From Taiwanofungus camphoratus (taxonomy: Eukaryota; Basidiomycota; Agaricomycetes; Polyporales; Taiwanofungaceae): 64,000 nucleotides of DNA. Shown here piece by piece: positions 5,058 to 28,429 of the stretch; within the stretch, counting starts at the first letter, position 1; every line of letters begins with the position of its first letter. A program made the position numbers and the translations under genes. Below the pieces are notes generated by a model. The model was not told the DNA's origin, ran no database searches, and was given only the letters and a program-made list of their open reading frames with translations. The stretch is taken from the NCBI GenBank assembly GCA_003999685.1, contig CP021223.1:1240001-1304000 (forward strand), in the 5' to 3' direction.

Positions 5058-5094
5058 TCTCCTCCTTTTTGGAATTTGGACCGTCCTCGGTCCA
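5058..5094 (-). promoter_or_regulatory. B2 3' polypurine tract with upstream hairpin
   Basis: On the minus strand a perfect 6-bp hairpin, TGGACC-GAGGAC-GGTCCA, is followed by about 18 A/G-rich bases ending AAAAAGGAGGAGA directly against the LTR start TGATAGG. The purine run is the expected plus-strand primer of reverse transcription. The hairpin and spacing recur inside B2 pol at about 20791-20823 and twice in element B1. Confidence 0.8.
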
Positions 5095-5296
5095 CACGTG
5101 ACGCCTAGAAGCTTGGTGGATGTGACTGGATCGAAGCTTTTATGGGGACCTGCGCGGTTCCGACCTTCTTGTGACTCGTGCCGATCACGTGCCGTTGAGG
5201 AGGATTTAAGCCGGAGCGACTTAGCTGTTTTTCTTCGCTCGTTGTTCCACATTCGACACGCTCCCCCTCTTCTACATCGGCCTCCTCTTCCTTACA

Positions 5297-6663
5297 ATGC
5301 CTTCTCGTTCTGCTACCCCCGCTGTCGTCGCTTCGCGCGTTCAGCGCGCTCGGGACCGTCTGATCGTGGTGCTCGATACACCCTGTGCCGACACCATCCC
5401 CGAGGAGGTCAAAGCTTGGGCGCAGGACATTGCGGATTTGCTGGTACGTCTCTTATCAGCTCGTCCTTTCCTATTTGCTAACTACCTCTGTCGTAGAGTA
5501 CGTATTGCAAGGCACGGGGGCCCGTTGAGGATGTGGAGGTGGATGAGCGTGTGTCGACGCTGGTTGGCGAGCTCGCCGAGATTGCCGCCGAGTCGTGGGC
5601 CGTGTGGGTCCGCGATGAATGGCCAGCCCTGGCCACTGCGATCGACGCCGTCACTGCTCGTCGCATTGAAGAGGAGAGGCGTCGCAAAGAAGAGGCACGC
5701 CTCCGTGCTGCTGCGGCCGAGGCTCGTCGTGTCGAAGAAGAACACCGCCAAGAAGAAGCCGCGCGTGTGGCTCGGGAGTGTGAGGAGGAGGAGGCTGCCC
5801 TTCAACGAGAGGCGGAGGAGGCCGCGCAGTTGGCCGATGCCGACGTGTCTAGGATGGTGGAGGGTACTGGGGAGCACGTCGAAGGGGCCGCTGCCACTTC
5901 GAAGGGAAAGAAACGGGCTCGGGATGATGACGCTGTGGCGGTATGTTACGGAGTCTTGCCCTCCTATTCGATTACTGACCGGCTTGTAGAAGGCGTCGAA
6001 GAGCGACCGTGACGGCTCAACGGCGCCCGAGACTAACTGGGCACGAGTCGTGCGGATGAAGCAGCAGGCGGGGGAAAAGGTATGTGATTTGTTTCTTCAG
6101 CTATTCTCCTGAGCTAATACTTCTTCGTAGTGCGATCGATGTCGTATCCGCATTCAGACCGTCGAGTGTGTCTGGGCGGAGGGCGCCACTGCGTGTGAGC
6201 GGTGCATCCAGGCAGCGCAGGGCTGCTATTTCGGTGGGGTCTCGGTCTTGGGTCGTACGAAGAAGACTCACGGTGGTGCGAAGAAGCAGGGTGAGTCTTC
6301 TTCTTCTTTCTTGCGTTTGTCCCTGACTTGTCTTTCTCTGCAGCCCCCTCTCCTTCGCCTGGACCTTCGACGGGAGAGGTCAGCGGATCGAAGCGCCGTC
6401 GAGTGGCCCAGCCGCCTCACCCCACTATCAAGGTTCCCCTGGATGGCGGTAGTCATCTGGGCCTCGAGCAGGACGACCTGGACTCGCTCGACCTCGATGA
6501 GCAGTCACGCACCGCCATCCGCATGATTCGGGCGGAGCGCGCGAACATTGCATTTCGCCGCGCCATGCTCCATAACCTCGACCTGGAGCTGATTCGCATG
6601 GAACAGGAGGCGATTGCGGGCGGCGGCTTCGACGTGGGTGCTGAGTCGGGCAATGAGGAGTAG
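5297..6663 (+). CDS. Antisense accessory gene of element B2, six-cysteine protein
   Basis: Runs opposite to B2 gag-pol, between the end of integrase and the 3' LTR. Open blocks are separated by short GT-AG introns, for example near 5442-5494. Visible parts are an N-terminal helical region, a long charged coiled coil rich in Arg/Glu at about 5690-5860, a KKRARDDD basic patch, a cysteine block at 6131-6226 with spacing C-x2-C-x8-C-x8-C-x2-C-x6-C, and a C-terminal helical part ending near 6663. An intron lies immediately before the first cysteine, as in the B1 counterpart. The spacing resembles fungal Zn2Cys6 domains but has a longer first loop. DNA binding is inference; function unknown. Confidence 0.7.
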
Positions 6664-7057
6664 TCGTTGTCTTGTGGCAGGTCGTGGTCTTTGTACTATA
6701 GAAAATTTAAACATTCTTTGTCCCAATTGTGAAATGCGTGTTAGAAGGAAATAGAAGCGTTCGAAGAAGAAGAACATATCGAAGGACTTGGTAAGAAAAA
6801 TGGTAGCGTTGGTAGGCTCAGTTTGTCATCACTGCCTAGGAGGACTCGTAGAATGTGAGCCTCCGCGCAACGTTCAAATCGAAACGTTCGTAGAACGTCG
6901 AAGCGATATCGCGACTTAGTCGAGTTGAATCGTGTATGGTACAGGTAAAAATGACGCTAGATCAAATAGAAAGAGAGGTGAAATCAAGCATATAGTAAGA
7001 GAAACAAGACCATTGAAAGTACGCATCATAGTAGTATAAGTAAAGAGACAGGGGCTT
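6664..7057. other. Non-coding spacer between convergent B2 genes
   Basis: Separates the end of the antisense accessory gene from the end of pol; both read towards this 394-bp AT-richer stretch. No ORF or repeat is evident. It probably holds the 3' ends of both transcripts. Confidence 0.5.
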
Positions 7058-8018
7058 CTACTGCTCGCTTTCTTTGACGTCTTCGACGATGTCATCGTCG
7101 TCGTCGCCGAGCGAATTGGATCGTTCAAGTTCTCGAAGACGCTCAGTTGAGATGTCTTCTAGGTTGTCTGGGATAGGGATGGATTGTCGAGCGAAGTAGG
7201 GGATGACTCGAAATGCTGCGATGGGCCGATCGAGGACTGTGCCGTCCAGTTCGCAGATGATGTACGCGCCGCCCCTGTTGCGTGAGACAACGATGAGGGG
7301 GCCTAAGTAGCGGGGGTGCATCTTGCTATTCAGGGACTTCTCGATCTTTGTGTTTCGTACGAGCACTAAGTCTCCTCGTTTGAAATTAAAGTCCTTGATC
7401 GAGTGCTCGTGCTCCTTTTCGAAGCGAAGTGCTGCTGTTCGACGGGCTTCGTAGACCTTCGAGCTGAGTTCGGCTACTTGCTCTACGCGCTTCTGGAGCG
7501 CGATTGCTCTACGTGTGATGAGATCTGTCGTAGAAAGAATTGAAGTGGGAGGGGGCTGAAGGTACGTGGCTTCTACGATGTTGAGAGGGATAAGGGGGTG
7601 GGTGCCCGTTACCGCAAAGTACGGTGAGCAACCCATGCGTCGTCGAGTCGTAATGCGTTCGGACCAGAATACGAAGTACGCCACGCGAGACCACTTCTTC
7701 TCGTCTCCGTTGGCGGTTTTGAACAAGGCTTGTCTTGTGCTGAAGTGCGGTCGTTCGACGAGTCCGTTCGCTCTAGAGTTGTAGCCGCTGATTCGAATGT
7801 GGTTGATGTGGTATTTTTTCGACAGATAGTCTGCCGCTTTGATAAATGCTGCACCATTGTCCGTAACGATCTCGCTGAGTGCGCCCCATCAACAGAGGAT
7901 GTCTTCGAAGATCCAGTCAGCGAGTGCTGACGCTGTTTCTTTTCGAAGCATTCGAAACTCCGGGTACGTCGTGAGAGAGCATCTTCCTTGTACAAGGTAT
8001 TTGTATCCACCTGATGCG
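7058..8018 (-). CDS. Element B2 integrase, C-terminal part (fossil)
   Basis: Continuation of B2 pol cut off by the B1 insertion at 8019/20327. It resembles the B1 integrase: a VQGRCSL...YPEFRMLRKE core, the catalytic-core glutamate region RANGLVERPHF-like near 7750, and a C-terminal domain with GDLVLVRN and a P-R-Y-L-G-P motif, the GPY/F-type module of Ty3/gypsy integrases. Part of a broken element. Confidence 0.8.
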
Positions 8019-8019
8019 G
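8016..8019. repeat. Target-site duplication of element B1 (left copy, GCGG)
   Basis: GCGG at 8016-8019 precedes the LTR start TGATGAG; the same GCGG follows the other LTR end at 20327-20330. Bases outside the pair read in one frame through the B2 integrase on the minus strand, which confirms the insertion point. Confidence 0.9.
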
Positions 8020-9766
8020 TGATGAGTCCCGTAGCCTCCTGGGCCCCGAATCGCGATTTTAGGAGCTTTCTGATCCCCCAACCGACCACTCTAAGACTCT
8101 CCTACAGCCTACGACAGGAGGGATAGGTTCCTATAATATTCCTAACGCCCCCTCTCCTTCCTAAACCCTCCTAACACCCTACGAAGTCTTGCAAAGTCAC
8201 ACGAGGTGCTACGAGATTTCGAATGCTAGACGCGAAGTCCCTAACTCCTGCTAAGTCCACTATCGGACACTGCCGGCCCTCCCATACTGTTCCATTGGAT
8301 CTAGGTCCTATCTACTACGTCACTCATCCCGGGCTTAGCTGAGAAGTCTTAGCTAAGTCTCTCCTAGCTCTTGTGATTGCAGTTACCTCTGATAGGCTCC
8401 GAAACGGTCCGAAGTTCCGGAAGTTGGACTTAGAAAGCCTTGTGCACCCCCATGGGTCTCGATCCTATGCCATAAGGTCATCCTAGGGCGTACCCATATG
8501 GCCCTCCACCCAGTTAGGACACCTCCTGCCCCGATTAGGCCAAGTCCCGCTGCTAAGAACTTCGTGCGCTCTTAGCCCGCTAAGATAGGTGATCACGGCG
8601 CATGGCTGCTCTCGGATAGTCATCCCGCCCTCGTGAATGAAGTTTGTCACCTTTCTACCGTTCGTAGTTCCCCTGTTTCAGTTCCTAAATAGTTCCTATC
8701 CCCCTCATGTTCACTTCGGAGTCCATGCGTTTTAGTACACATTTCGGACTCGTAAGGATCACTTCGCGCAAGATTAGTTCACCTCACACTCCCCTATTTA
8801 GTCAGAGGTAGTTTACTATGTACGAGAGAGACCCCTCAGTGTACGCTTCTCTCTTTGGAATACCAGTTCCCCTGTAGCTCCGATCTCAGGAAAGCGCCGC
8901 GAGTACAACCTTAGGAACGGTCCCAAGGTCCCTAAGTCTCCACCCCAGCTCCGTTTCAGTACCTTTGAACTACGTCTACGCTCACGATATATCTACGAAC
9001 TACGTCTACGCTTCCCGAACTACGCACTACGATCTACGAAGTCGCCGTGACTTCGTGCCCTTCAGCACCTCTTATAGCACCTATCCGGTGGGCCTCCGCC
9101 TTAGTTATACCCTTAGGCTCACGTTGCGTCATCCCTACGACTCCCCCATAGCCTTCATTACAGGCTATAGTACATCTCTCTACGCCCTCGAACTCTCCGA
9201 CCCACACCTCGACGTCATCAGACACTTCAGAGCTTCCAGCAACCTCGTTCCCTCATTCCTATTCCAAGTATTAGCTCTCCGAACCATCCGACCTCTCCTA
9301 CAAGTCTCCTACGCCAGCCAAACCTCGCCCACCTCGCTCTAACAAACCTCTAAGCCTTACACCCTTTAGCTAACTCTAGCTAAAAGGACTTCGCAGCAGT
9401 CTCGTACCCTCTGCCGCTTAGTAGAAATTATAGTCCATTGGCTTATTGCTCCCTAATTCTATACAGCCTACGAAGTCAGCTCGCGCGATTTAGCTAAAAC
9501 TTCGAAGGACTTCGCAGAATCTCGAAGGACTTTGCGTACTTCGGAGGGCCTCACAAGGCCTTAGGGATAGTCTAGCACTTAGGAACAAGATCCTGTTGTG
9601 CAGGACCCTTGACCCCTTACTCCCCTACTTACAAAAACAAGACATACAGGTTTCCCGGTATCATACAGGTTGTAGCTCCTACCCTCACACCCTCACAGTT
9701 ATCACACTACCCCACAGCCACGTTGCGGAGCACTCCCTAGGTACCAGGGTCCCCTAGGTCGTATCA
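8020..9766 (+). repeat. 5' LTR of element B1
   Basis: 1747 bp with TGAT...ATCA ends, followed by TTTC and the primer-binding site. It has a region dense in CTACG/CTTCG words around 8960-9060. It matches the inverted solo LTR at 3126-4872 without visible difference, but differs from its own partner at 18629-20326. Confidence 0.92.
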
Positions 9767-9770
9767 TTTC

Positions 9771-9782
9771 TGGAGCCCACCG
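9771..9782 (+). promoter_or_regulatory. Primer-binding site of element B1
   Basis: TGGAGCCCACCG lies four bases after the 5' LTR. The TGG start fits pairing with a tRNA 3' CCA end. Element B2 has the identical 12 bases at the same distance, although its LTR is unrelated. I cannot name the tRNA without a tRNA set. Confidence 0.7.
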
Positions 9783-9806
9783 TGAGGGGGAGCAGTCAAG
9801 ATTTCA

Positions 9807-12740
9807 TTGCCTTCAGATCATCCTACGTCTAACCAGTCCTCTCCGAGAAACAGCGATCAGTTACTATCCGAGTTCTTTCAGGTCGGCTATCGTTACTATA
9901 CTCAAGCAGGCCTTCCACGAAGCACCTCTTCGCGAACACCTACGACTATCCCCTCCGATATCATTTCTACACTCGAATCTTCCGAATCGACCCCCGACTT
10001 CGAGGCTCTTTTCGAAGGGTCTCTAGACACGCTTACCACGTCCGAAGACTCACCAATTGAGGACTTCGAACCTCAGTCCACGTCCCCTGAGCTTCCTAAC
10101 ACCTCCAAAGGAAGCGGTCCTTCTTCAGCGTCTGACCCTATCTTAGTCCATTTACCGGAATCCCCTCCGCTATCCTCTACGCTCCTATCAGCTTCGCGTT
10201 CCCCTCCGATTCCTTCTATTACACTTTCCGATGCTTCTACGACCCAATCTTCGTCAGCTAGCATCAACTCAGCTTCGAACCCATCTTTGACCGCACCCAC
10301 TTTAGCTAATCCCCTAAATCCTATTTCTGTGTCAACCATGAACGCACCTCCACTCATGCCACCTCGAGGAGATCGTACATCCCCCACCTTCGATCCTGAC
10401 CAGCCCAGGACCATCCGAAGGTATTTCCAGGACTTAGAGTCACTTTTTGTCCGCTGCCAGATAGCGGATGAGGCGACGAAGAAACACTGGACTACTCGCT
10501 ACCCTCCTATCGATGTTTCGGACCTATGGGAGTCCCTCCCTGAGTGTTCCGATGTCACGAAGACCTACGAAGACTTCAAGAAGGAGATTAGAAGCCTCTA
10601 TCCAGGCACAGAGGACGATAGAATGTGGTCTATGTCTGACTTGGACCAGTTGATAGGAGAACGTGCTAGAATTGGAATCAACAATGCGGCAGACTTAGGA
10701 AGCTTCTATCGTGAGTTTTATGCCATCACGAAGTACCTAATTTCGAAAAATAGGTTGTCTACTATCGAGCAAAGCTGTGCTTTTGCGAGGGCCTTCCAAC
10801 CTTCGCTATGGGCTCGCGTGTCTACTAGGTTACAGCTAAAGTTCCCTGATCACTTACCCGATGATCCCTACACCTTGGACCAGCTACATAGCGCAGCGAA
10901 GTTCGTACTCCTTGGTACTTCTACGACTCTTACCTCTGCTACGACTGTAACTGCTTCGACCACTGCCGTGCCCGTGGGGGGCTCATCGCTAAAGATAGAG
11001 GATCTACAGACGTTTGCAGAGATCCTCACGAAGTCCGTAACCAGTGCGCTAGCTCCTGTTCTTGCGAACCAGCAACCCCCTCGATTGGACAGCTCGCGCG
11101 GCGAGCACACTCATGTAGAAGGCCAGTACTGTCACTATTGCGGGGACTTGGACTGCTGCACTAGGTGTTGCAAGCACATTGAGCAAGACATCAAGGATGG
11201 CAAGTGCAAGCGCAACCCAGATGGAAAGATAGTACTGCCAAATGGAAATTTCGTACCCAGAACGATCCCAGGACGTACGATTCGCGATAGGCTTTACGAA
11301 TACCATCGACGAAATGGCACGAATTCCTCCCCACAGCTCCTATTCGAAATCGACAATCGCCTAAATGTGCCCGCATTCTCACTATCCACCGAGGATCGTA
11401 TAGCCGCTTTAGAACACGAGATTTACCAACTTCGGAGATGTCGCGAAGTCTTCGATGGTGTGGAAGTACCCCAGCGCAGAAGGCAGGGTGCTCCTAATGC
11501 GCAGTCTGATCCTAGAAACCCACCCATAGCCAACGCACCTCCGATAGGACGCGCTCAGCATCCAGTAGTGGATCCCCCTGCTAACCAAGATGCCCCAGTG
11601 GCGGAGGCGCAGAACCAGACCCCTCCTACCATTCTAAGGCGATCCAATTATCCTTCTAATTCAGCGCCTTCACCTCCGAAGCCTGCAAATGCGTCCGATC
11701 CACCCACGAACTCATCGAAGCATGCCTCGTCTACACCTAACGTACCAGCCCAACCAGCATCACAGGCAGCCATTCCACCGCCCACTCCACCAGTACATCC
11801 TTTCACTAATGCTCGAGATGCTACTTACGCACCTCCGAATCTTCGAAATTTCGCAGCAGCTCCGAAGCCTACAGCAGACAAAGGCAAGGACGTGGCCTAT
11901 AAGACGATCACACCGGTTCATCAGGAGAAACTTACAGAGGAAATATTCGCGCGATCTATGAGAACACCAGTGGTTACACTAACGTCCGAGGAGCTACTAT
12001 CTATATCCCTGGATGTTCGTGCGCGATATCGCGAAGCTATCACCCCTAAACGTGTGCCTATGGACCCTAAGGCTACTCATATGGCTCAAATTACGGAACT
12101 CTCAGACGATCTCGCTTCTAAAATGACGCTAGCAACCTCCGAACTATCGTGCCACGGTGAACCCCTTGTCCCTGGTTCGACCATAATTCCAGACCCCTAC
12201 GAAACGTACTTACGACACGTACCCGGAAAGGAAGAACCCTCCGAAATTATAGTAGCCCGCGACTCGAACTCTATCCGTTCTATCGAAGCCCTAATCGACA
12301 ACAAAGAGCGAATCGAATGCATCGTGGACCCTGGGTCACAAGTGGTTGCGATGTCAGAGCAAGTCTGTCATGCCTTAGGACTAATCTACGACCCTTCCGT
12401 GCAGCTAAATATGCAGTCTGCTAATGGCAGTATTGACCGTTCCTTAGGACTGGTTCGAAATGTCTCGTTCCAAGTAGGCGACATCATGTTGTACCTACAG
12501 ATGCACGTCATACGCAATCCCTCCTACGATATCCTTCTAGGCCGTCCCTTCGATGTGGTAACCGAGAGTGTGGTTAAGAACTTCGGAAACGAGGAGCAGA
12601 CCATCACGATCGTATGCCCAAACACGAGCGAAGTCGCGACAATCCCTACGATGCCTCGAGGACGTCAAAAGTTCTTACCAGCCCATCATCATAGTTGCCC
12701 CCATGTGAACTCTTCGAATCATTTGCGATCGGGTTTTTAG
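9807..12740 (+). CDS. Element B1 Gag with retropepsin-like domain
   Basis: 977-codon frame. A Ser/Thr/Pro-rich N-terminus is followed by a helical capsid-like region around residues 190-370 (DLDQLIGERARIGI, conserved in B2), a Cys/His knuckle-like segment near residues 435-455, a Pro-rich linker, and a protease-like domain near residues 830-930 ending YDILLGRPFD. Protease lies in the gag frame, and the frame stops directly after the slippery heptamer that leads to pol. Packaging and processing roles are inferred from the family. Confidence 0.85.
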   Translation: MPSDHPTSNQSSPRNSDQLLSEFFQVGYRYYTQAGLPRSTSSRTPTTIPSDIISTLESSESTPDFEALFEGSLDTLTTSEDSPIEDFEPQSTSPELPNTSKGSGPSSASDPILVHLPESPPLSSTLLSASRSPPIPSITLSDASTTQSSSASINSASNPSLTAPTLANPLNPISVSTMNAPPLMPPRGDRTSPTFDPDQPRTIRRYFQDLESLFVRCQIADEATKKHWTTRYPPIDVSDLWESLPECSDVTKTYEDFKKEIRSLYPGTEDDRMWSMSDLDQLIGERARIGINNAADLGSFYREFYAITKYLISKNRLSTIEQSCAFARAFQPSLWARVSTRLQLKFPDHLPDDPYTLDQLHSAAKFVLLGTSTTLTSATTVTASTTAVPVGGSSLKIEDLQTFAEILTKSVTSALAPVLANQQPPRLDSSRGEHTHVEGQYCHYCGDLDCCTRCCKHIEQDIKDGKCKRNPDGKIVLPNGNFVPRTIPGRTIRDRLYEYHRRNGTNSSPQLLFEIDNRLNVPAFSLSTEDRIAALEHEIYQLRRCREVFDGVEVPQRRRQGAPNAQSDPRNPPIANAPPIGRAQHPVVDPPANQDAPVAEAQNQTPPTILRRSNYPSNSAPSPPKPANASDPPTNSSKHASSTPNVPAQPASQAAIPPPTPPVHPFTNARDATYAPPNLRNFAAAPKPTADKGKDVAYKTITPVHQEKLTEEIFARSMRTPVVTLTSEELLSISLDVRARYREAITPKRVPMDPKATHMAQITELSDDLASKMTLATSELSCHGEPLVPGSTIIPDPYETYLRHVPGKEEPSEIIVARDSNSIRSIEALIDNKERIECIVDPGSQVVAMSEQVCHALGLIYDPSVQLNMQSANGSIDRSLGLVRNVSFQVGDIMLYLQMHVIRNPSYDILLGRPFDVVTESVVKNFGNEEQTITIVCPNTSEVATIPTMPRGRQKFLPAHHHSCPHVNSSNHLRSGF

Positions 12741-15700
12741 ACTTCGAGGATTTGAGAAATCAAGGAGAGGTCGCCCTGGTCATTGAGTATGAATCCGATA
12801 CCCCTAAAATTGTGTCTTTCGCTGCTGTAAATGCAGCAGATAACAATTCTGTTCCTGCGCTCTATCTATCAGTCTCTAACTCTGTGTCTAGCTATCTGCA
12901 GTCTCTCTATTTTAGCGAAACTTCGAAAGTCTCGGAAGGTCCGGCTGATCATACTAGGTGGCTATCTGGCTTTCTAGCAGCAGCAACACCGCACGAGGCT
13001 CCCTTCCTTTCACACGATAATCCGAATTCTCTCCCTATGCTTTCGCTTTCCGCCTCTAAAGACATATCCTCTATCCCCATTCCAGGTCCCAGGAACGCTA
13101 CGAAGGTCACAAAGTCAGCCCGAAGACCCTCCCTTGCTCCTAATCCGATGGTATCCCTTCCTAAGTTGTCAGATTCTTCCCCTATTCCTACATTTGCAGC
13201 ATCGAAAAAGAAGTACAAGCCTGTAGCGCTGAAGACTCGCCCTATTCTGGGAGCTTTGGACGAACGATTCAGAATCATTCGCGAAATTAAAGGCGACCCT
13301 TTAGCGACGATGCCTACCCTATCACCGACTCCACCACCTTTCGAACCTACTTCGCGATATACGCAAGAACGGCATGATCTCACGGACAAGCTACACAGTG
13401 GAGACTTCCTACAACCAGCAGAGAGGGACCTCCTACATCATTTTATGACCCTACATGCTGATGCGTTCGCTTGGAATGACTCCGAAAGGGGGTGCTTCAA
13501 GCCGGAGTACTTCCCTCCTATCGACTTTCCGGTAGTACCGCACACGCCATGGGTACAAAAGAACATTCCTATCCCACCCGGAATCTACAACGAAGTGTGC
13601 GCAATCATCAAAAAGAAGATTGCAGCTGGGGTCTACGAACCTTCGAATTCTTCCTATCGTTCACGATGGTTTTGTGTGGTGAAGAAAGATGGAAAGTCCC
13701 TACGCCTTGTACATAGTCTGGAACCCCTAAACGCTGTCACGATTCAACACTCAGGCGTTCCCCCGACTCCCGAACACCTCGCAGAACAGTTCGGAGGACG
13801 ACCTTGTGGTGCTATGTTGGATCTATATGTAGGCTATGATGAACGCTTGATAGCGGAGACTTCACGCGATCTTACGACATTTCAAACACCTTTCGGAGCT
13901 ATGAGATTGGTCACTCTACCTATGGGATGGACCAACTCGGTCCCTATCTTCCACAATGATGTTACGCACATCCTGCAGCCCGAAATTCCTCACCTAACGG
14001 TTCCCTATATCGACGATGTTCCGGTCAAAGGCCCTGAAAGTTCGTACGATCTCGTACCTATTTCGGAGAACCCAGGCATTCGAAAGTTTGTTTGGGAACA
14101 TTTTACGAACCTCAATAGGATAGTCACACGCATGCGCTATGCAGGAGGTACCTTTTCTGGAGTTAAAAGCATTCTAATTGCCCGTGAAATCACCGTTGTA
14201 GGGCATCGGTGTACTCCAGAAGGTCGCCTACCGGACGAGTCTTGTGTTGCAGCCATACGCAACTGGGGACCTTGTGCGACCCTATCTGACGTTCGAGCCT
14301 TTCTAGGAACCATTGGAGTGGTCCATATCTTCATCCGAAACTTCGCACATCGTGCAGATGCCTTAGTACGCCTAACACGAAAGGCGGTACCCTTCAAATT
14401 TGGTCCAGCGCAAATCACAGCGCAGGAGGACCTTAAGGATGCTTTGCTGTCCTCTCCAGCTCTCCGATCCATTAACTATTCATCAGGTGCGCCCGTGATC
14501 TTAGCAGTTGACACCTCCTATATTGCAGTTGGCTATCACCTTTGCCAATGCGATGAGGACAACCCTAAAGTCCGATTCTACAATCGTTTCGGATCCATCA
14601 CTCTAAATGATCGTGAGCAGAGGTTCTCGCAACCGAAGTTAGAGATCTACGGATTGTTTCGAGCACTTCGCGTACTACGAATCTACCTAATCGGAGTTAG
14701 GAACCTTATAGTGGAAGTTGACGCACGCTATATCAAAGGGATGTTGCAAAATCCGGACATCGCACCCAGCGCGAGTATAAATCGCTGGATCGTATCGATT
14801 CTAACATTCCATTTCACCCTAGTACATGTACCAGGTACGATGCATGGACCAGACGGACTATCAAGACGAACCCCCCAGCCAGGAGATCAAGAAGAGAGCA
14901 GCGAAGAAGACTTCAAAGACTGGATAGACAAAATGCACTCGTTTCTACATCACATCCAAGCCCCCCCTTCCCATCCTATACCATCGATTTCTACCCTATT
15001 CCCTTACGAATTCGCCTCTAACATTCCTATCACAACCCCCATACCTCCGATAGCTCCAACCTTCGCCTCCGAGTTGGCTGAGGACAGCCAAGGTTTCAAT
15101 AGGGAGGAGGAGAGCTACGATAGCGTCCCAAGATCCGAAATGGCCAAGGAAGCTGACGCAAGACTTGACTTAGTAGCAAAATTCCTACGAAGCCTCGCGA
15201 GACCTGCCAACCTATCGGATTCAGAATACGAAGGTTTCGTAAAATACTGTCTTCTATTCTTCCTTGATGAGGACATACTATGGCGCAAAGATCCACAAGG
15301 AGCTCACAAACTAGTTGTAAAGCAGGCAGACCGTCTACGAATCCTCCGAGAATGTCACGACGCAGTTGCGCACCGAGGAATACACGCTACGAAGGTGCTG
15401 ATTTCAGAGCGGTTTTGGTGGCCCTACCACCATATCGACATTGCCTGGTATGTTCAAAGCTGCCACCTATGCCAGATTCGCCAAGTGCGGCAGATCCTAA
15501 TCCCTCCTACGGTCGCTACGCCCGCTCCGATCTTCGCAAAGGTTCATATAGATACCATGCATATGCCCCCTTCTAACGGATTTAGGTACTTGGTGCAAGG
15601 CCGGTGTTCTCTAACCCAGTACCCTGAATTTCGGATGCTTCGCAAGGAGACGGCTAAAGCTTTGGCAGAATGGCTCTTCGAAGACTTTGTTTGTAGGTGG

Positions 15701-16549
15701 GGCGCGCTATCGGAGATAGTCACGGACAACGGCGCTCCCTTCGTAAAAGCTACGAACTACATAGCGAAGAAGTACCAGCTACAACACATCCGAATTAGCG
15801 GATACAATTCGCGTGCCAACGGGCTGGTGGAGAGGCCTCACTTCGATGTTAGGCAGGCTCTATTCAAGGCCGTGGATGGCGAAGAGTCTAAATGGTCTCA
15901 GGCAACGTACTCAGTCTTCTGGTCCGAAAGGATCACGACTCGAAAGCGCATGGGATGTTCGCCCTATTTCACGGTCACTGGCACCCACCCTGTTATCCCT
16001 TTGAACGTCATAGAGGCCACCTATATCCTTCCTCCTCCATCTTCTATGCTATCCACGACCGATCTTATCGCACGTCGAGCTATCGCATTGCAAAAGCGGG
16101 TGACTCAGGTAGCGGAACTACATTCGAAGGTCTACGAAGCGCGAAGACAAGCTGCTCTGCGATTCGAAGAAAAGCATAAGCACTCCATCCACGATTTCAA
16201 CTTCGAAAAGGGCGATTTAGTACTAATTCGCAACACACAGATAGAAAAGTCCCTAAATTGGAAGATGCGACCTCGCTACCTCGGCCCAGTACTCGTAGTA
16301 TCTAGGAACAAAGGTGGTGCTTATATCCTATGCGAATTGGATGGTTCGGTACTCGACAGGCCTACGGCAGCCTTCCGAGTCATCCCCTACTTAGCGCGAA
16401 AAGCCCTCGAACTTCCTACCGAACTCTTGGACGTGTCGACGGAGCGACTTCATGAACTAGAGCTGACTACCACCCAAGGCGATGACGAAGAACTAGGATC
16501 GTATCCCTACTCTCCTAAGTCCGGCTCTAGTCCATCCGAAGCTCACTAA
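12695..16549 (+). CDS. Element B1 Pol: RT, RNase H, integrase
   Basis: 1284-codon frame, overlapping gag in the -1 frame. RT spans about 13480-14100 (VKKDGKSLRLVHSLEPLN, then MGWTNSVPIFHNDV and PYIDDVPV). RNase H spans about 14490-14870 (AVDTSYIAVGYH, QPKLEIYGLFRAL, HVPGTMHGPDGLSRR). A linker carries an internal hairpin/purine block at 15074-15110. Integrase follows from about 15340: H2C2 zinc region (CHDAVAHRGIHA ... CHLCQ), a D,D-E core with DTMHMP, VTDNGAPF and ANGLVERPHF, and a C-terminal RPRYLGP module. It looks whole. Confidence 0.9.
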   Translation: MPPCELFESFAIGFLDFEDLRNQGEVALVIEYESDTPKIVSFAAVNAADNNSVPALYLSVSNSVSSYLQSLYFSETSKVSEGPADHTRWLSGFLAAATPHEAPFLSHDNPNSLPMLSLSASKDISSIPIPGPRNATKVTKSARRPSLAPNPMVSLPKLSDSSPIPTFAASKKKYKPVALKTRPILGALDERFRIIREIKGDPLATMPTLSPTPPPFEPTSRYTQERHDLTDKLHSGDFLQPAERDLLHHFMTLHADAFAWNDSERGCFKPEYFPPIDFPVVPHTPWVQKNIPIPPGIYNEVCAIIKKKIAAGVYEPSNSSYRSRWFCVVKKDGKSLRLVHSLEPLNAVTIQHSGVPPTPEHLAEQFGGRPCGAMLDLYVGYDERLIAETSRDLTTFQTPFGAMRLVTLPMGWTNSVPIFHNDVTHILQPEIPHLTVPYIDDVPVKGPESSYDLVPISENPGIRKFVWEHFTNLNRIVTRMRYAGGTFSGVKSILIAREITVVGHRCTPEGRLPDESCVAAIRNWGPCATLSDVRAFLGTIGVVHIFIRNFAHRADALVRLTRKAVPFKFGPAQITAQEDLKDALLSSPALRSINYSSGAPVILAVDTSYIAVGYHLCQCDEDNPKVRFYNRFGSITLNDREQRFSQPKLEIYGLFRALRVLRIYLIGVRNLIVEVDARYIKGMLQNPDIAPSASINRWIVSILTFHFTLVHVPGTMHGPDGLSRRTPQPGDQEESSEEDFKDWIDKMHSFLHHIQAPPSHPIPSISTLFPYEFASNIPITTPIPPIAPTFASELAEDSQGFNREEESYDSVPRSEMAKEADARLDLVAKFLRSLARPANLSDSEYEGFVKYCLLFFLDEDILWRKDPQGAHKLVVKQADRLRILRECHDAVAHRGIHATKVLISERFWWPYHHIDIAWYVQSCHLCQIRQVRQILIPPTVATPAPIFAKVHIDTMHMPPSNGFRYLVQGRCSLTQYPEFRMLRKETAKALAEWLFEDFVCRWGALSEIVTDNGAPFVKATNYIAKKYQLQHIRISGYNSRANGLVERPHFDVRQALFKAVDGEESKWSQATYSVFWSERITTRKRMGCSPYFTVTGTHPVIPLNVIEATYILPPPSSMLSTTDLIARRAIALQKRVTQVAELHSKVYEARRQAALRFEEKHKHSIHDFNFEKGDLVLIRNTQIEKSLNWKMRPRYLGPVLVVSRNKGGAYILCELDGSVLDRPTAAFRVIPYLARKALELPTELLDVSTERLHELELTTTQGDDEELGSYPYSPKSGSSPSEAH
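12731..12737 (+). promoter_or_regulatory. -1 frameshift slippery heptamer of B1
   Basis: GGGTTTT in X-XXY-YYZ phase with the gag frame, followed immediately by the gag stop TAG. A -1 slip enters the pol frame. The same heptamer lies at the equivalent place in B2 (23001-23007, minus strand). Programmed -1 frameshifting is a common gag-pol strategy of LTR elements; use here is inferred. Confidence 0.7.
15074..15110 (+). promoter_or_regulatory. Internal (central) hairpin plus polypurine tract in B1 pol
   Basis: TTGGCT-GAGGAC-AGCCAA forms a perfect 6-bp stem with a 6-nt loop. A TTTCAATA spacer and the purine run GGGAGGAGG follow. The 3' LTR-adjacent block at 18592-18628 has the same loop, spacer and purine run with a compensated stem. 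It lies in the coding linker between RNase H and integrase. Confidence 0.7.
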
Positions 16550-17082
16550 AGAATCAGAGGAGCAATCGACGATACCCCGACTTTAGCTAAGATTACGCTA
16601 CGTCCATTTTACTTTTCGCTTACCCTTTGGTCATGTTTTACTTTCCCCAACAAGCCCCCACTCAGTTTGACAGCTACGAAGTCCCGAATGTCTACGAATT
16701 TTTACTTACAACATCTCCGACTTTTTACTATAGTGATTCAACTCACGAAGTCATGATATCGTTCTAAAGGCTCCTAAAATGCCAAGCGGAGCGAAGATTG
16801 CGCGAGGGGCCTTAAGCCCTTCAAGGCCATGATGATTTACTGAGCCTAAATGAGCGCATTTTATCCCCCTAAGTCTTCTAATTCATCTCTGTGTTGTTTG
16901 GTTACTTCACGCACTTAGAAACCTTTTCACAAGGACGACGTTTGCGTCCACTATATTCAGACTATTGTACACATATTGGAAAAGGTCCCTAGCAAAGGGA
17001 CGCGCAACGAGAGAGAATACAGCACGTTGGTGCGACAGATACGGAACGGGCGAGACGACGAACTACAATCCCCCCCCACCTT
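16550..17082. other. Non-coding spacer between convergent B1 genes
   Basis: 533 bp between the pol stop and the end of the antisense accessory gene. No frame or repeat is recognised. It is AT-richer than the coding parts and corresponds in position to 6664-7057 of B2. Confidence 0.5.
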
Positions 17083-18460
17083 CTAAACCTCGGCCTCGGC
17101 ATCTTCCTCATCCTGCTCGGACTCACCGGAGGGACCAGGATCGGTAGAGGAGGCAGCGACGCGACGGCGAGAAAGAGGGAGAGAACTCAAGTCGAGCGGC
17201 GCAGGCGTACGACCGGTTAGGGCGGTTTCGGCACGATAGAGCCCCGAGATGTAGTCTTCGAGACGCATCGCGCGACTCTCGGCCATCGCGCGGTCATACC
17301 AGAGGCCTTCGACAACGGCTTGATGCGCAGGGGTGAGGCCGTCCAAGTATTTGGCGCCGTTAAGGGCCAGCGAGGCCTCGAGCGACATCATAGGCACAGG
17401 GGTCGACTTCACCTTCTTGGACTCGCGGGCGCAAGGCGGGGACACCTGAGGAGGTTGGCCCGCAGCTAGGGGACGCCCTAACATCAGCAATGACGCAATA
17501 ACGAGGGCACGAGAAGCCCTACTGCACTTCGAAACGCGCACTCCGCGCTCCTTACCGTCTACAGAGAATCCGCCCCAATAACACCCCTGCGACTCTCGAA
17601 GGCACTTACCGCACTTCACAGCACCCACAGGGAGTTCACACTCGAAGTCAGTGGTGTAGGTGCTGCAGCGATCACACTGGAAAGCAATAATAAGTCGCGA
17701 ACAGCCACGAGAAAGAAGCGTACTCACCTTCGCATGAGTTCGCCTATGCTCCGCCGCCTTCGCCATGTTAGCCAGGGCTTCGGGCATCGGAGGAGCCTTC
17801 GCCTTCGCAGCGTCCTTCCCCTGAGTAGGAGGGACCCCTACGAAGACACCCAAACTCGTGGACGAGGCGAGTTCGCCGACTTGGCCGCTAGAAACGGAGG
17901 CCATGATGGAGCTGGCCTGAGAAGCCGCACGAGTAGAAGCTGCTGCCTTGGCCCGAGCTGAGGGACGATGAGTGCGCAATGAGGTATGACTAGGGGCCGG
18001 CGAGGGAGCAGAAGACGAAGCCACAAGTTGCGCAGCGCGTTCAAGCGCAGCGCGCTCGACCGCCTCCACACGAAGTCGTTCGGTCGCGTGGGCGAGTTCG
18101 CGCTGTGCGTCTCGCTCTTGAAGCATAGCGGCGAACTGAGGAAAGCCGGTGCGGGCCCACGAGATCCACGACGAGTCCGCGAGAGGGAGGATCGCCGTCA
18201 AACCTTCGACGATGGTGGCCTCTAAGGTAGGATCGGCAGGAGCGTTCAAAGCCTGGGACAGGACCCGCCAGTTACCCTATAACGCAGTGAAGACAATGTA
18301 GCGAGCGATCGAGGAGGATACGTACCACACGACGTCCTAAGTTCCTTGCCCACCGCAAGTAATCTTCGACCTCTGCTACACCCTCCGGACGAGAATTGAG
18401 GAGCGCCAGGACATCGCTGTGAGCTAGGCCAACACCATCAGAGTCCATATCGTCGAACAT
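17083..18460 (-). CDS. Antisense accessory gene of element B1, six-cysteine protein
   Basis: Counterpart of the B2 gene at 5297-6663, again opposite to gag-pol and between pol and the 3' LTR. The likely start is ATG at 18458-18460, with further open blocks separated by short GT-AG introns. It has an N-terminal helical part, an Arg/Glu-rich coiled-coil-like segment near 18000-18130, a Ser/Ala-rich linker, and a cysteine block at 17581-17676 with exactly the B2 spacing C-x2-C-x8-C-x8-C-x2-C-x6-C and a CYWGG/CYFGG end. The intron just before the first cysteine is in the same position in both elements. Overall protein similarity is low outside the cysteine block. Function unknown; regulation of the element or of host genes is speculation. 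Confidence 0.7.
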
Positions 18461-18591
18461 GATGGGGAAGGGAAAGGCAAAAGGGGAGAAAGGAGAAAAA
18501 GATAAGAGGCACCCACGATTAGCTTCTATCAGGATATCGCCCGCTTCGCAGATCGCATGCGATAGGCTACAAGTTCCCACGGTCGTGCACA

Positions 18592-18628
18592 CTGACTGAG
18601 GACAGTCAGGATTTCAATAGAGAGGAGG
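18592..18628 (+). promoter_or_regulatory. B1 3' polypurine tract with upstream hairpin
   Basis: CTGACT-GAGGAC-AGTCAG (perfect 6-bp stem, loop GAGGAC) is followed by GATTTCAATAG and the purine run AGAGGAGG abutting the 3' LTR at 18629. Compared with the internal copy at 15074-15110, two stem positions have changed on both sides so that pairing is kept. Confidence 0.8.
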
Positions 18629-20326
18629 TGATAAGTCCCGTAGCCTCCTGGGCCCCGAATCGCGATTTTAGGAGCTTTCTGATCCCCCAACCGACCACTC
18701 TAAGACTCTCCTACAGCCTACGACAGGAGGGATAGGTTCCTATAATATTCCTAACGCCCCCTCTCCTTCCTAAACCCTCCTAACACCCTACGAAGTCTTG
18801 CAAAGTCACACGAGGTGCTACGAGATTTCGAATGCTAGACGCGAAGTCCCTAACTCCTGCTAAGTCCACTATCGGACACTGCCGGCCCTCCCATACTGTT
18901 CCATTGGATCTAGGTCCTATCTACTACGTCACTCATCCTGGGCTTAGCTAAGAAGTCTTAGCTAAGTCTCTCCTAGCTCTTGTGATTGCAGCTACCTCCG
19001 ATAGGCTTCGAAACGGTCCGAAGTTCCGGAAGTTGGACTTAGGAAGCCTTGTGCACCCCCATGGGTCTCAATCCTATGCCATAAGGTCATCCTAGGGCGT
19101 ACCCATATGACCCTCCACCCAGTTAGGACACCTCCTGCCCCGATTAGGCCAAGTCCTGCTGCTAAGAACTTTGTGCGCTCTTAGCCCACTAAGATAGGTG
19201 ATCACGGCACATGGCTGCTCTCGGATAGTCATCCCGCCCTCGTGAATGAACTTGGTCACCTTTCTACCGTACGTAGTTCCCCTGTTTCAGTTCCTAATTA
19301 GTTCCTATCCTCCTCGTGTTCACTTCGGAGTCCATGCGCTTTAGTACACATTTCGGACTCGTAAGGATCGCTTCGCGCAAGATTAGTTCACCTCACGTTC
19401 CCCTATTTAGTCAGAGGTAGTTTACTATGTACAAGAGAGACCCCTCAGTGCACGCTTCTCTCGTTGGAATACTAGTTCCCCTGTAGCTCCGATCTCAGGA
19501 AAGCGCCGCGAGTACAACCTTAGGAATGGTCCCAAGGTCCCTAAGTCTCCACCCCAGCTCCGTTTCAGTACCTTTGAACTACGTCTACGCTCGCAATATA
19601 TCTACGAACCACGTCTACGCTTCCTGAACTACGCACTACGATCCACGAAGTCGCCGTAACTTTGTGCCCTTCAGTACCTCTTATAGCACCTATCCGGTGG
19701 GCCTCTGCCTTAGTTATACCCTTAGGCTCACATTGCGTCATCCCTACGTCCTACGAATAACCCTACGACTCCCCCATAGCCTTCATTACAGGCTATAGTA
19801 CATCTCTCTACGCCCTCGAACTCTCCGACCCACACCTCGACGTCATCAGACACTTCAGAGCTTCCAGCAACCTCGTTCCCTCATTCCTATTCCAAGTATT
19901 AGCTCTCCGAACCATCCGACCTCTCCTACAAGTCTCCTACGCTAGCCAAACCTCGCCCACCTCGCTCTAACAAACCTCTAAACCTTACGCCCTTTAGCTA
20001 ACTCTAGCTAAAAGGACTTCGCAGCATCTACGAAGTCAGCTCGTGCGACTTAGCTAAAACTTCGAAGGACTTCGCAGAATCTCGAAGAACTTCGCATACT
20101 TCGGAGGGCCTCGCAAGGCCTTAGGGATAGTATAGCACTTAGGAACAAGATCCTGTTGTGCAGGACCCTTGACCCCTTACTCCCCCACTTACAAAAACAA
20201 GACATACAGGTTTCCCGATATCGTACAGGTTGTAGCTCCTACCCTCATATCCTCACAGTTATTACACTACCCCACAGCCACGTTACGGAGCGCTCCCTAG
20301 GTACCAGGGTCCCCTAGGTCATATCA
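18629..20326 (+). repeat. 3' LTR of element B1
   Basis: 1698 bp, TGAT...ATCA, followed by GCGG. Relative to the 5' LTR it lacks a stretch of about 70 bp near 20030 and has about 19 extra bases near 19750. Roughly 55-60 single differences are seen, mostly transitions. Confidence 0.9.
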
Positions 20327-20330
20327 GCGG

Positions 20331-22986
20331 GCATATGCATCGTATCGATATGTATCTTTGCGAAGATAGGGGCGGGCATTGCGACGGTAGGGGGAATAAG
20401 GATTTGCTGAACTTGACGAGACTGGCATAGATGGCACGTTCGGACGAACCATGCTATATCTGCGTAGTGGAACGGCCACCAAAATCGTTCATTGACGAAG
20501 ACTTTTGTTGCGTAGATGCCCCGATGAGCGGTGCGGTCGTGACATTCTCGAAGGATTTGAAGGCGATCGTCAGGCTTGACGACCAACTTGTGCGCGCCGT
20601 GGTTGTCTTTTCGCCATAGAGTGTCGTTATCCAAGAAGAACAGCACGCAGTACTTGAGAAACCCTTCGTATTCGCTGTCCGAAATGCCTTCTGGCTTCGA
20701 AAGCGTTCGATGAAACTCGAGGACCTCATTGAGTCTTGCATCTGCGAGCTGCGCTTGCTCTGAACGCGGGACGATTTCGTAGCTATCTTCCTCCTTTTTG
20801 AAATTGGAGCCGTCCTCGGCTTCTGCGTTGGTTAGCACGGACATCGTAGGGGCATGAGGGGGAGGTAGTATCTGATGTACAAAGAAGTGCATGTGATCAA
20901 TCCAGTCGTTGAAGTCTTCGTCGATTTCTTCTACGACCGCGTCACCTGGCTGTGGTGTACGTCGAGAGAGACCATCGGGGCCATGCATTGTACCGGGAAC
21001 ATGTACTATCGTGAAGTGGAATGTGAGGATGGCTACTATCCAGCGGTTGATGCTTGCGCTGGGGGCGATATCTGGGTTCTTGAGCATGCCTTTGATGTAG
21101 CGAGCATCGACTTCTACGATGAGGTTTCGAACGCCGATAAGGTAAAGTCGAAGGGATCGAAGGGCACGGAATAGACTGTATATCTCGAGTTTAGATTGAG
21201 AGAACCTTCGCTCGCGATCGTTCAGCGTGATAGAGCCAAAGCGGTTGTAGTAGTGGATTCGAGTGTTGGCTTCGTCGCACTGACAAAGGTGGTACCCAAC
21301 TGCAATGAATGAAGTGTCGACTGCGAGGATTACGGGAGACGGGGAATTGTAGTTGATAGCTCGTAGTGCGGGGGAGGAGAGTAGAGCGTCCTTGAGGTCT
21401 TCTTGTGCTACGATTTGCTCAGGACCGAATTCGAACTCTACATCCTTCCTCGTAAGGCGTACGAAGGCCTCGGCACGATGGGCGAAGTTGCGTATGAAGA
21501 TTCGAACAACTCCGATAGTTCCTAGAAACGCTCGGACATCGGAGAGCGTAGCGCAGGGGCCCCAGTTGCGTATTGCTGAGACTCGAGAGTCGTCGGGCAA
21601 CCGTCCTTCAGGAGTACACCGGTGCCCTATGACCATGATTTTGCGCGAGATTAGAACGCTCTTTACGCCGGAGAAGGTTCCTCCTGCGTAGCACATTCGA
21701 GTAACGATTCGATTCAAGTTTTTGAAGTGTTCCCATACGAATCTTCGAATCTCATGGTTCGAAGGCAGCCGCTCATCGTTGTAGTCAGATGTGGGGCCTT
21801 TGACTGGAACGTCGTCGATGTAGGGGACTGTAGAGTGCAGGATTTCGGGTTGTAGAATGTGCGTGACGTCGTCGTGGAATATAGGGACTGAGTTCGTCCA
21901 ACCCATCGGAAGGGTGACGAGTCGCATGGCACCGTAGGGAGTTTGGAGCGTCGTAAGGTCTCTTGAAGACTCCGCGATGAGTTGTTCGTCGTAGCCTACG
22001 TAGAGGTCGAGCATGCCGCCGCACGGTCTTCCTCCAAACTGTTCTGCGAGATATTCTGGCGTTGGTGGTACGCCGGAGTGCTGTATAGTAACTGCGTTAA
22101 GGGGCTCGAGGGAGTGTACGAGTCGAAGAGATTTCCCGTCCTTCTTTACTATGCAGAACCAACGCGATTGGTACGACGAGTTCGAAGGCTCGTAGACACC
22201 TGCGTCGATCTTTCGCTTGATTATTGCGCAGACTTGATTGTAGATCCCAGGTGGAATTGGGATATTCTTCTGCACCCAGGGCGTATGTGATATGACAGGG
22301 AAATCTACAGGAGGGAAGTACTCTGGTTTGAAGCATCCTCTTTCTTCGTCGGTCCATGCGAAGGCTTCGTTGTGCAAGCACATGAAGTGATGGAGAACTC
22401 GACGCTCATCGGGGAGCAGGAAGGTGCCGTCGTGAAGCTTCTCCATAATTTTGAAGCATTCACGCGTATAACGGCCAGTAGGTTCGAAGGGTGGGGGGTC
22501 AGCTGAGAGTACTGGCATAATGGATAGGGGGTCGCCCTTGATATCTCAAATTATTCGAAACTGCTTGGGGACCGCTCCTAGAACGGGACGAGTCTTGAGT
22601 GCGACTGGCTTGTACTTCTTCTTAGTAGCTGCATAGGTTTCGTGAGTCGACGTAGAAGATGTCGGATAAATGGAATTAAGAAGCTGAGAGGTCGAAGTGC
22701 AATTCGAAGAGTTCGAAGAGGACGGATTAGGCAGCAAAGCAAAAGGGGCTGAAAATAGAAGTGTCGAAGCCCACGTCGAAGCATTCGATGTGGCCGTACT
22801 GGATGCTTTTGTGTCTGCGGTGTAGAGAGACTGCAAATGCGAGGAGACTGAAGAACAAGCAGAGAGATAAAGAGACTGGACTGCGCCGGAGATCGAAGAA
22901 TTTATTGGAGCGACGAAAGAAATACTTGGCTTTGTCCCATCGTAGTCGATGACTAGGGCTGCTTCTCCTTGACGATGGGGTATCAA
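20331..22986 (-). CDS. Element B2 Pol: RT, RNase H, start of integrase (fossil)
   Basis: Minus-strand homologue of B1 pol. RT has PYIDDVPV, RNase H has AVDTSFIAVGYH and HVPGTMHGPDGLSRR, and the integrase zinc region has CHDRTAHRGIYA ... CHLCQ. The frame is cut at 20327-20330 by the B1 insertion and its remainder lies at 8018-7058. The linker between RNase H and integrase carries the internal hairpin/purine block. Part of a broken element. Confidence 0.85.
20791..20823 (-). promoter_or_regulatory. Internal (central) hairpin plus purine block in B2 pol
   Basis: On the minus strand GAAGCC-GAGGAC-GGCTCC pairs at five of six positions around the invariant loop, followed by AATTTCAAAAAGGAGGA. It matches the B2 3' block (5058-5094) more closely than the B1 copies, including the AAAAAGGAGGA run. 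Confidence 0.65.
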
Positions 22987-23000
22987 ATCCTTGAAGCGTG

Positions 23001-23007
23001 AAAACCC
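23001..23007 (-). promoter_or_regulatory. -1 frameshift slippery heptamer of B2
   Basis: GGGTTTT on the minus strand at the gag-pol junction, in the same relation to the two frames as in B1 and shortly before the gag-frame stop. Confidence 0.6.
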
Positions 23008-23009
23008 GC

Positions 23010-25706: not shown

Positions 25707-25744
25707 ATCTGAAAGCGGCAGATTCCTTGCCTGAAATCCCCTCG

Positions 25745-25756
25745 CGGTGGGCTCCA
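25745..25756 (-). promoter_or_regulatory. Primer-binding site of element B2
   Basis: On the minus strand TGGAGCCCACCG follows four bases after the LTR, identical to the PBS of B1. Confidence 0.7.
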
Positions 25757-25760
25757 GAAA

Positions 25761-26686
25761 TGATGTGCACTACAGCACTCCAACCCCTACTGGGTACGAC
25801 CTAGAGAAGCTGGAAGGCTATAGAACTAGTTAGTGTGGAGGGGAGAGTCAGCAGCAAAGGGTTCCCGATCTCAAATGGGTCAAGAGACGTCTACGAAGGT
25901 CTTCGACGACCCTCTACGTGTGTCGCGACTGCTCGACGTAGCTTCGATGCGCTACTATGCTGTACTATACTAGGGAGGGGCTTAAAGGTGAGAACTTAGC
26001 TGATATACAACCCTTCGATGTGGCTCGAAGGCGGGCGTAAGACTGAACGCAACTTCTTCGACGGATGTCGAAGACTGACGAGACGCAAGCCTTCAAGATA
26101 CTGTAGAAGGCAGATAGTAGATGCAACTCTTCGAACGTAATCAAAGACGGAAGGATGCAGTAGAACGCAGTAGGTGGCTAAATCGAAGGTGCTCTTCTTG
26201 AGCTCTGCAGGATAGGGGAAAACTTCTCCGTTGTTCCGAGACACCATACATCGCATTTATCCTACTGTACTATAATGTAAGGCGCATCGGGAGTGGCATA
26301 GTACGAGTGGCATCCTAACTTCTTGCGTACTACAAATTATGGAGTGGCATGAAATATACTAAGACAAGACCTGGGGCCGTAGCGTTATTGAGTACATCGA
26401 GTGGCGCATCGTAGCAAATCGAGTGATATCGGAGTGGCGAGACCAGTCACGTGCGAGGACATTGAGTGGCAACTGCGTGTGGTGTATTGTGCGTAGAGGG
26501 ACCGGTACACCGGAACATCGGACCGGAACTGGCGGAGTGGCGGTGGCATGATTCGAGGCTATCGGAGAGTCCCGCGGTGGCTTTTCGGGCTGTATCGGAC
26601 ATGTCGAGTGACGTCGAAGCCATGACTAAGGTCCTAGGGTCGAGTGAGGGCGCTCCGCGGGGCCTAGAAGGGCCTGGCGCCTATCA
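25761..26686 (-). repeat. 5' LTR of element B2
   Basis: 926-bp intact copy of the LTR whose partner is at 2381-5057. Ends are TGAT...ATCA, and the outer end is followed by TCGG. It shows the uninterrupted site of the solo LTR near 26500. Confidence 0.92.
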
Positions 26687-28425: not shown

Positions 28426-28429
28426 TCGG

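Follow-up and report, generated by a model that had tools for sequence, protein, structure and literature searches.

A hairpin with a nearly fixed loop accompanies the polypurine tracts of three related retrotransposon families in Taiwanofungus camphoratus

What is a small hairpin doing beside the polypurine tract of a retrotransposon, and is it kept there by selection? The question is raised by a 64,000-nucleotide stretch of the Taiwanofungus camphoratus genome (C4:1240001-1304000; the window), in which three long terminal repeat (LTR) retrotransposons are nested: an element called A contains B2, on the minus strand, whose pol gene in turn contains B1, on the plus strand. The purine tract adjoining the LTR is the established site of plus-strand priming in LTR elements. 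An initial annotation of the window had described four hairpins with an invariant GAGGAC hexaloop and a covarying 6-bp stem, each followed at a fixed distance by a purine run, and had read them as a selected structure tied to the polypurine tract (PPT). We followed these claims through the genome to which the window belongs (33.2 Mb in 15 contigs). The sequence evidence indicates that such a structure very probably exists.

All four hairpins were found where they had been placed, with the arms given for them; three pair at all six positions and the fourth, in B2 pol, at five (Table 1). The counts of changed pairs were also correct: the B1 copies differ at two pairs, and the B2 copies at three besides one mismatch. 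Each B element carries the arrangement twice; one copy precedes the 3′ LTR, and the other lies within pol, in the stretch that links RNase H to integrase. At every window site the hairpin leads into a 9-nt spacer containing TTTC (TTCC at the B2 3′ site) and then into the purine run. The fixed distance held as well: 19 nt separate the base of the hairpin from the PPT/U3 junction, marked by the LTR start TGATA, in B1, in B2, and in a third family, B3, described below, and the pol tract stands in the same register as the 3′ tract. In all three families the tract within pol is a near-copy of the 3′ PPT, the criterion for a central PPT, which this second copy resembles. Within each family, the two sites are alike in the closing arm pair and the purine tract. 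GAGGAC occurs 48 times in the window, counting both strands. Beyond the four hairpins described, two of its sites have six pairable positions (339-356 and 49743-49760, both on the minus strand), and by eye a purine tract is absent after both. For random arms, the chance of at least five Watson-Crick pairs out of six is approximately P = 0.0045.

Table 1. Positions of the hairpins, spacers and purine tracts, and of the elements that carry them, in the window
Feature	Position	Strand	Description
B1 central hairpin	15074..15091	+	Arms TTGGCT/AGCCAA, loop GAGGAC; 6/6 arm pairs; in frame, RNase H-integrase linker of pol
B1 central spacer and candidate central polypurine tract	15092..15110	+	19 nt; spacer GGTTTCAAT, tract AGGGAGGAGG
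B1 3′ hairpin	18592..18609	+	Arms CTGACT/AGTCAG, loop GAGGAC; 6/6 arm pairs
B1 3′ spacer and polypurine tract	18610..18628	+	Abuts 3′ LTR start TGATAAG at 18629
B2 central hairpin	20806..20823	-	Arms GAAGCC/GGCTCC; 5/6 pairs, pair 2 mismatched (A·C); in frame within B2 pol
B2 central spacer and purine tract	20787..20805	-	AATTTCAAAAAGGAGGAAG; same register as other sites
B2 3′ hairpin	5077..5094	-	Arms TGGACC/GGTCCA, loop GAGGAC; 6/6 arm pairs
B2 3′ spacer and polypurine tract	5058..5076	-	Abuts 3′ LTR start TGATAGG, first base 5057
B1 element	8020..20326	+	LTRs ~8020-9766 and 18629-20326; sits in B2 pol; target duplication GCGG
B2 element	2381..26686	-	5′ LTR 26686 down to 25761; 3′ LTR 5057 down to 2381; target duplication CCGA
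B1 pol open frame	12695..16549	+	RNase H and integrase by Pfam, reverse transcriptase by eye; contains central cassette

The hairpin was recovered almost without fail when the genome was searched from the PPT side, with the spacer and purine tract fixed and the 18 upstream bases left free, a result that upholds the proposed tie between hairpin and PPT. (The patterns barred A as the first arm base, unless it was counted as a mismatch.) The RATTTCAATARRGAGGA search, which is of B1/B3 type and allowed zero mismatches, gave 70 matches. A hairpin preceded all 70, with six arm pairs in 69, and its loop was GAGGAC in 66 and GAGGGC in four. With a B2-type tract and at most one mismatch, we obtained 76 matches, 74 of which had both arms recognisable, though not always fully paired; the remaining two were one match without a left arm and one unrelated sequence. 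A third tract search, which overlaps the RATTTCAATARRGAGGA search, returned 135 matches, compared to one for its reversed-pattern control, and among the 100 of these that were listed both arms were present in every case and six pairs in 98. A pattern anchored on the loop instead matched the whole genome 125 times, and its reversed control 0 times.

To these we added an extraction by homology, made at B2 loci that were picked by their pol match and without reference to the loop (alignments of at least 150 nt, truncated copies dropped). The B1 rows of this extraction are biased toward the loop, their loci having been fetched by a GAGGAC pattern, a bias from which the PPT-anchored searches are free. 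The extraction yielded 37 central and 24 3′ copies of B2. All six arm pairs, counting G·T, were present in 21 of the 24 3′ copies. Scoring was possible for 35 central copies: 29 had five pairs and the same A·C mismatch, three had four pairs, two had five pairs with a different mismatch, and one had six. The loop described as invariant is present at the four window sites but is not strictly invariant across the genome, and its G and C are predicted to pair with each other. Some B2 3′ copies carry GGGGAC, and decayed copies carry GAGGAT, AAGGAC, or GAGAAC.

The third family, B3, also has the hairpin and tract at both positions, with arms TTGACC/GGTCAA in one copy (L031) and TTGACT/AGTCAA in another (L068). 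In L031, where both copies lie on the minus strand (522-563 and 2801-2842 in reverse-complement coordinates), the central site matches the 3′ site over 42 nt without a difference, and aligned identity ends there. Judged from this alignment, the copied unit is the hairpin with its spacer and tract, not the tract alone. Over 37 positions, the central and 3′ sites differ at five in B1, ten in B2, and none in B3, which makes some homogenisation between the two sites of a family likely. Protein and pattern scans of viral contigs and of bacterial and archaeal genomes, which are uninformative on fungi, gave no outside relatives.

We then asked how strongly the arms covary. Of the 36 pairs in the six arm types, 35 are Watson-Crick and one is A·C, and when the arms were permuted only one of the 720 combinations, the true one, reached 35/36. 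Under a null model in which the two arms of each lineage change independently, to the extent observed, P varied from 4e-9 to 2e-3 with the root, the transition bias, and the counting of G·U. An earlier count on 27 hand-picked variants was repeated on the 56 distinct rows listed in the three PPT-anchored searches, excluding one unrelated row (C3:1020143). In this set, 91.1% of cells are paired, compared to 70.4% in shuffles and at most 40.3% when the partner was slid by one to three columns, and the covariation score is 0.676, compared to 0.306 in shuffles. None of 500 shuffles was as high for paired cells, for the covariation score, or for cells with a double change. Within this genome, the kind of covariation check that the initial annotation had put forward came out in its favor: for three of the five measures the copies score above both the shuffled and the slid controls, and the loop is almost fixed. 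At pair 6, T·G occurs in five cells and unpaired combinations in eight. The weight of the covariation appears to be on pairs 1 to 4, compared between lineages.

When the six arm types were folded alone, the G and C of the loop were predicted to pair in all of them, leaving an AGGA tetraloop. The A-to-G loop variants, GGGGAC and GAGGGC, retain this closing G and C. As RNA, two types are predicted to have a 7-bp stem, three a 6-bp stem whose outermost U-A stays open, and the B2 pol type one of 5 bp; as DNA the predicted stem is 7 bp in five types and 5 bp in the B2 pol type. RNA folding energies are -6.9 to -10.7 kcal/mol. For the B2 central type, 12 of 200 shuffles folded as well, and for the others 0 to 5 of 200. 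In contexts of 30 to 200 nt, the predicted probability of the hairpin is at least 0.76 at the B1 central, B1 3′, B2 3′, and B3 central sites; at the B3 3′ site it is high with flanks of 30 or 60 nt. Rfam 15 gave no match at gathering score in window positions 1-30000, and neither B1 block has an exact stretch of at least 10 bases complementary to the B1 element. A same-sense partial match in the B1 leader (9794, four mismatches of 17) was dropped; B2 has no counterpart at the same cut-off.

The pol sites lie in frame, and we compared their codon usage with that of other parts of pol. Over the 45-nt stretch that starts at the hairpin, six of the seven residues shared by B1, B2, and B3 use identical codons, compared to 46 of 283 in the rest of the pol region examined (Fisher P = 1.6e-4). 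Two of these seven residues fall just beyond the tract, and the 37-nt block alone gives a weaker result (4/5 identical codons versus 48/285, P = 0.004). The residues encoded by the stem vary between families (LAEDSQ, LTEDGQ, EAEDGS), and pairing is maintained. At the 3′ sites, which lie beyond pol, the block is conserved and the surrounding sequence is unlike. For the six sites together, identity per 12-nt bin is 0.69-0.86 from the hairpin to the PPT, 0.46 in the bin that straddles the end of the block, and 0.20-0.38 in the remaining bins between -60 and +119. Downstream identity among just the three central sites stays at 0.33-0.64, because pol is conserved there. These unusually conserved codons argue for selection on the nucleic acid, and not just on the protein, at the pol site.

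What might the hairpin do? Because it accompanies both tracts, the most economical view is that it helps to make or use the primer, and hairpin and tract together probably form a cis-acting cassette that functions in plus-strand priming. Such a cassette would make the plus-strand primer at the 3′ PPT, by the LTR, and at the central PPT in the pol linker; that the tracts serve as primers at both positions we infer from the established biology of plus-strand priming. How reverse transcriptase (RT) picks the exact end of this primer is described as largely unknown in detail in the part of one source available to us (PMC3185511). Our tentative proposal is that the RNA hairpin may be a stalling ruler that sets the RNase H primer cut, carried twice, at the 3′ and central positions, as a transplantable cassette with a recognised tetraloop. 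RT copying the RNA toward its 5′ end would pass the tract, then reach the hairpin and pause at its 3′ base. The paused enzyme would place RNase H near the PPT/U3 junction, 19 nt behind, for a precise cut at the primer end. Pause and cut are the least certain steps, and the idea of a ruler comes from the 19 nt that separate hairpin base and junction. The conserved loop may be contacted by RT or nucleocapsid. A compact hairpin spaced by 19 nt, present twice per element, and free in sequence while its pairing is kept would give a clean test of whether structure outside the hybrid sets the cut.

Several points weigh against this explanation as a whole. The B2 central hairpin is mismatched, with a pairing probability of 0.44-0.62, and the B3 3′ hairpin gives way to a different fold once the flank is extended to 100 or 200 nt (0.04 and 0.02). 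Under strong transition bias with G·U allowed, the independent-arm P rises to 0.002. Two of the five covariation measures are not above shuffles, as 400 of 500 shuffles were as high for the number of pairs with a double change and 428 of 500 for the number of further pair types. The within-family changes at pair 6 are at CpG sites and may be decay; we place little weight on them, since both pair-6 bases lie within CpG in B2 and B3 and the B2 copies are decayed. The lineages appear not to be fully independent, because the two sites of one family resemble each other. The evidence as a whole is that of sequence, from one genome and three related families. Finally, polymerase and RNase H are separated by about 18 in HIV. 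For Ty3, the two sites are placed approximately 13 bp apart in the part of the source consulted (PMC5371799). The 19 nt measured here would fit either figure only with an assumed offset of a few nucleotides.

The roles that the initial annotation had proposed (positioning of RNase H, starting or stopping of the plus strand, and binding of nucleocapsid or integrase) cannot be separated by sequence, although integrase binding at the LTR end appears less likely because the pol copy is not beside an LTR end. The arrangement of the cassette, with a stop followed by a start at both sites, is also what would be expected if a DNA hairpin in single-stranded minus-strand DNA upstream of each PPT stopped incoming plus strands and so produced discrete segments. 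The predicted DNA folds are stable (-5.6 to -7.6 kcal/mol, plus sense only), and no G·T pair occurs in the six arm types, as expected if both strands fold. This sample is too small to infer a preference for DNA from the missing G·T, however, and the T·G and unpaired cells at pair 6 among the 56 rows speak against it; we consider such a terminator unlikely. Recognition of the RNA, in which nucleocapsid, RT, or another element protein would bind the loop for packaging or recruitment and adjacency to the PPT would be secondary, could account for the loop being kept better than the arms across families. It would also suit the A-to-G loop variants, which are not C-to-T or G-to-A decay and stay within G-R-G-G-R-C. 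Yet a free binding site needs neither a fixed distance to a purine tract, which both copies keep, nor a place at nearly every PPT of the type, and we regard this explanation as doubtful, a shade more so than the terminator.

The two other rivals explain the least. If the linker simply encoded a conserved x[AT]ED[SG] and the 3′ copy were a transferred stretch, pairing would be incidental. The same phase is indeed open across the block at the 3′ sites, where it reads TED.....EE, and the block copies are alike within each family. Against such coding and copying, the stem residues change while pairing stays, codon conservation exceeds that of the protein, the 3′ copies are located past the end of pol, where that phase has stops close by in B2 and B3, and the arms are unlike between the two sites of B1 and likewise of B2. 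We consider it very improbable, and give even less credence to a site in duplex DNA that a dimer, for example of integrase or of a host factor, would bind. At the DNA level the block does read as an inverted repeat, but its half-sites vary (TGACT, TGGCT, GGACC, AAGCC) around a nearly fixed, asymmetric centre, the reverse of the pattern of a dimer site.

Element A, which is unrelated to the B elements, offers a hairpin with the same loop. Its sequence, GACAAT-GAGGAC-ATTGTC, at 339-356 on the minus strand, also belongs to the linker between RNase H and integrase, where it falls within a motif coding for DNEDIV, and has no purine tract after it. Related sequences gave 99 matches genome-wide. In 18 variants read from the match list, 88 of 108 pairs were Watson-Crick, and the pairing is mixed: several variants lose two or three pairs, and some changes are compensated. 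The 3′ junction of element A has no GAGGAC hairpin and has two other 6-bp stems within 80 nt. Element A therefore appears to be only a partly clean control.

Whether the cassette is new depends on which part of it is considered. The initial annotation knew of no described element of this kind, a statement that stands for the geometry, with the hairpin wholly upstream of the PPT, and not for PPT-flanking structure in general. In Sirevirus and other copia elements, an inverted repeat around the junction of PPT and 3′ LTR puts the PPT in a loop; the authors propose that it helps in primer formation or correct RNase H processing, and the extra PPTs of these elements lack the repeat, according to the text available (PMC2829016). 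A hairpin with the PPT in its loop is also said to occur in HIV, in a source, seen in part, that urges a search in other elements (PMC3601003). The B families resemble Sirevirus, whose elements have several PPT copies, in having a conserved stem beside the terminal PPT and more than one PPT. In Sirevirus, however, the loop holds the PPT at its edge and the LTR contributes one of the arms, whereas in the B families the whole hairpin precedes the PPT, its loop is nearly fixed, and it is present at both PPTs. A search of the B families for a PPT-spanning repeat of Sirevirus type gave best ungapped matches no better than those of shuffles (74, 75, and 99 of 100 shuffles were as good for B1, B2, and B3).

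Central PPTs are found in lentiviruses and Ty1. As there, the B elements have a second copy of the 3′ PPT in pol; unlike there, the duplicated unit includes the hairpin and spacer, belongs to a gypsy-type element, where it separates RNase H from integrase, and is a candidate primer only. The cassette would also give a gypsy-type element a central PPT, whereas for Ty3 none has been identified, as far as the available text goes (PMC5371799). Some plant gypsy elements have additional PPTs, including Bongo3 (PMC3605345) and Athila4 and Calypso (PMC2829016). Like the B elements, these are Ty3/gypsy elements with more than one PPT, but the extra PPT is at the gag-pol end in Bongo3 and in the linker after pol in Athila4 and Calypso, and the parts of these sources consulted report no hairpin.

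The spacer may be compared with the U-box, a T-rich sequence upstream of the PPT (cited in PMC10085805). The TTTC or TTCC of the spacer, found at all six sites compared, is T-rich and upstream of the purine tract, but this stretch is short, and in B1 and B3 it ends 3 nt ahead of the purines. The U-box is a plain T-rich sequence, for which the text available describes no fixed-loop hairpin (PMC10085805). In fungi, GalEa copia elements have a Conserved Hairpin Site that replaces the primer binding site after the 5′ LTR and is thought to serve transposition, according to the accessible part of that report (PMC5445492). The B elements share with GalEa a conserved hairpin in fungal LTR elements, but their hairpin is near the PPT, and in both B1 and B2 the 5′ LTR is followed by TTTCTGGAGCCCACCG, which looks like a primer binding site. 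The words "polypurine" and "PPT" are both absent from the main text of a survey of fungal LTR elements (PMC3248453). No comparable cassette of hairpin and PPT turned up in the literature searched, whose coverage mostly excludes subscription journals. By this comparison, made with sources seen in part, the proposed two-part plus-strand origin (hairpin and PPT, 3′ and central) would be previously undescribed, while PPT-flanking structure as such is already known.

The elements that carry the cassette have the layout of Ty3/gypsy LTR retrotransposons. A domain scan of B1, the only element scanned, found Pfam aspartyl protease, RNase H, and integrase H2C2 in that order; the protease is encoded in a frame separate from pol. 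Pfam gave no RT match at E 0.001, and the YIDD motif of RT was read by eye. B1 and B2 are 81% identical from RT to RNase H, and both have 4-bp target duplications. The 3′ LTR of B2 is split by a solo B1 LTR at 3126-4875. A truncated B1 LTR start is also present at 28296-28429, with no GAGGAC hairpin beside it. The putative primer binding site TTTCTGGAGCCCACCGYGAGGGG is common to B1 (9767-9790) and B2 (25760-25738, minus strand).

Between integrase and the 3′ LTR, B1 has an antisense open frame (17083-18276, minus strand) that encodes 397 amino acids and has no Pfam match. A core of approximately 44 amino acids with several Cys residues matches B2 at 6131-6262 (plus strand) at 43%, outside the B2 frame at 5225-5989 (plus strand), and the B1 product is matched in the B3 copy L068 over 218 amino acids at 25% identity. 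The B families seem to share an additional antisense gene. Reading of the open frames led us to reject the possibility that the hairpin is part of this gene: in B2 the first ATG is at 5297 (by eye) and the hairpin at 5077-5094, and in B1 the frame ends at 18276 and the hairpin begins at 18592. TGA stops are found in many B2 copies (among L032-L067), together with C-to-T or G-to-A substitutions that frequently fall at CpG, and the pol frame is open in many B1 copies. From these sequences, B2 looks older and decayed, and B1 young.

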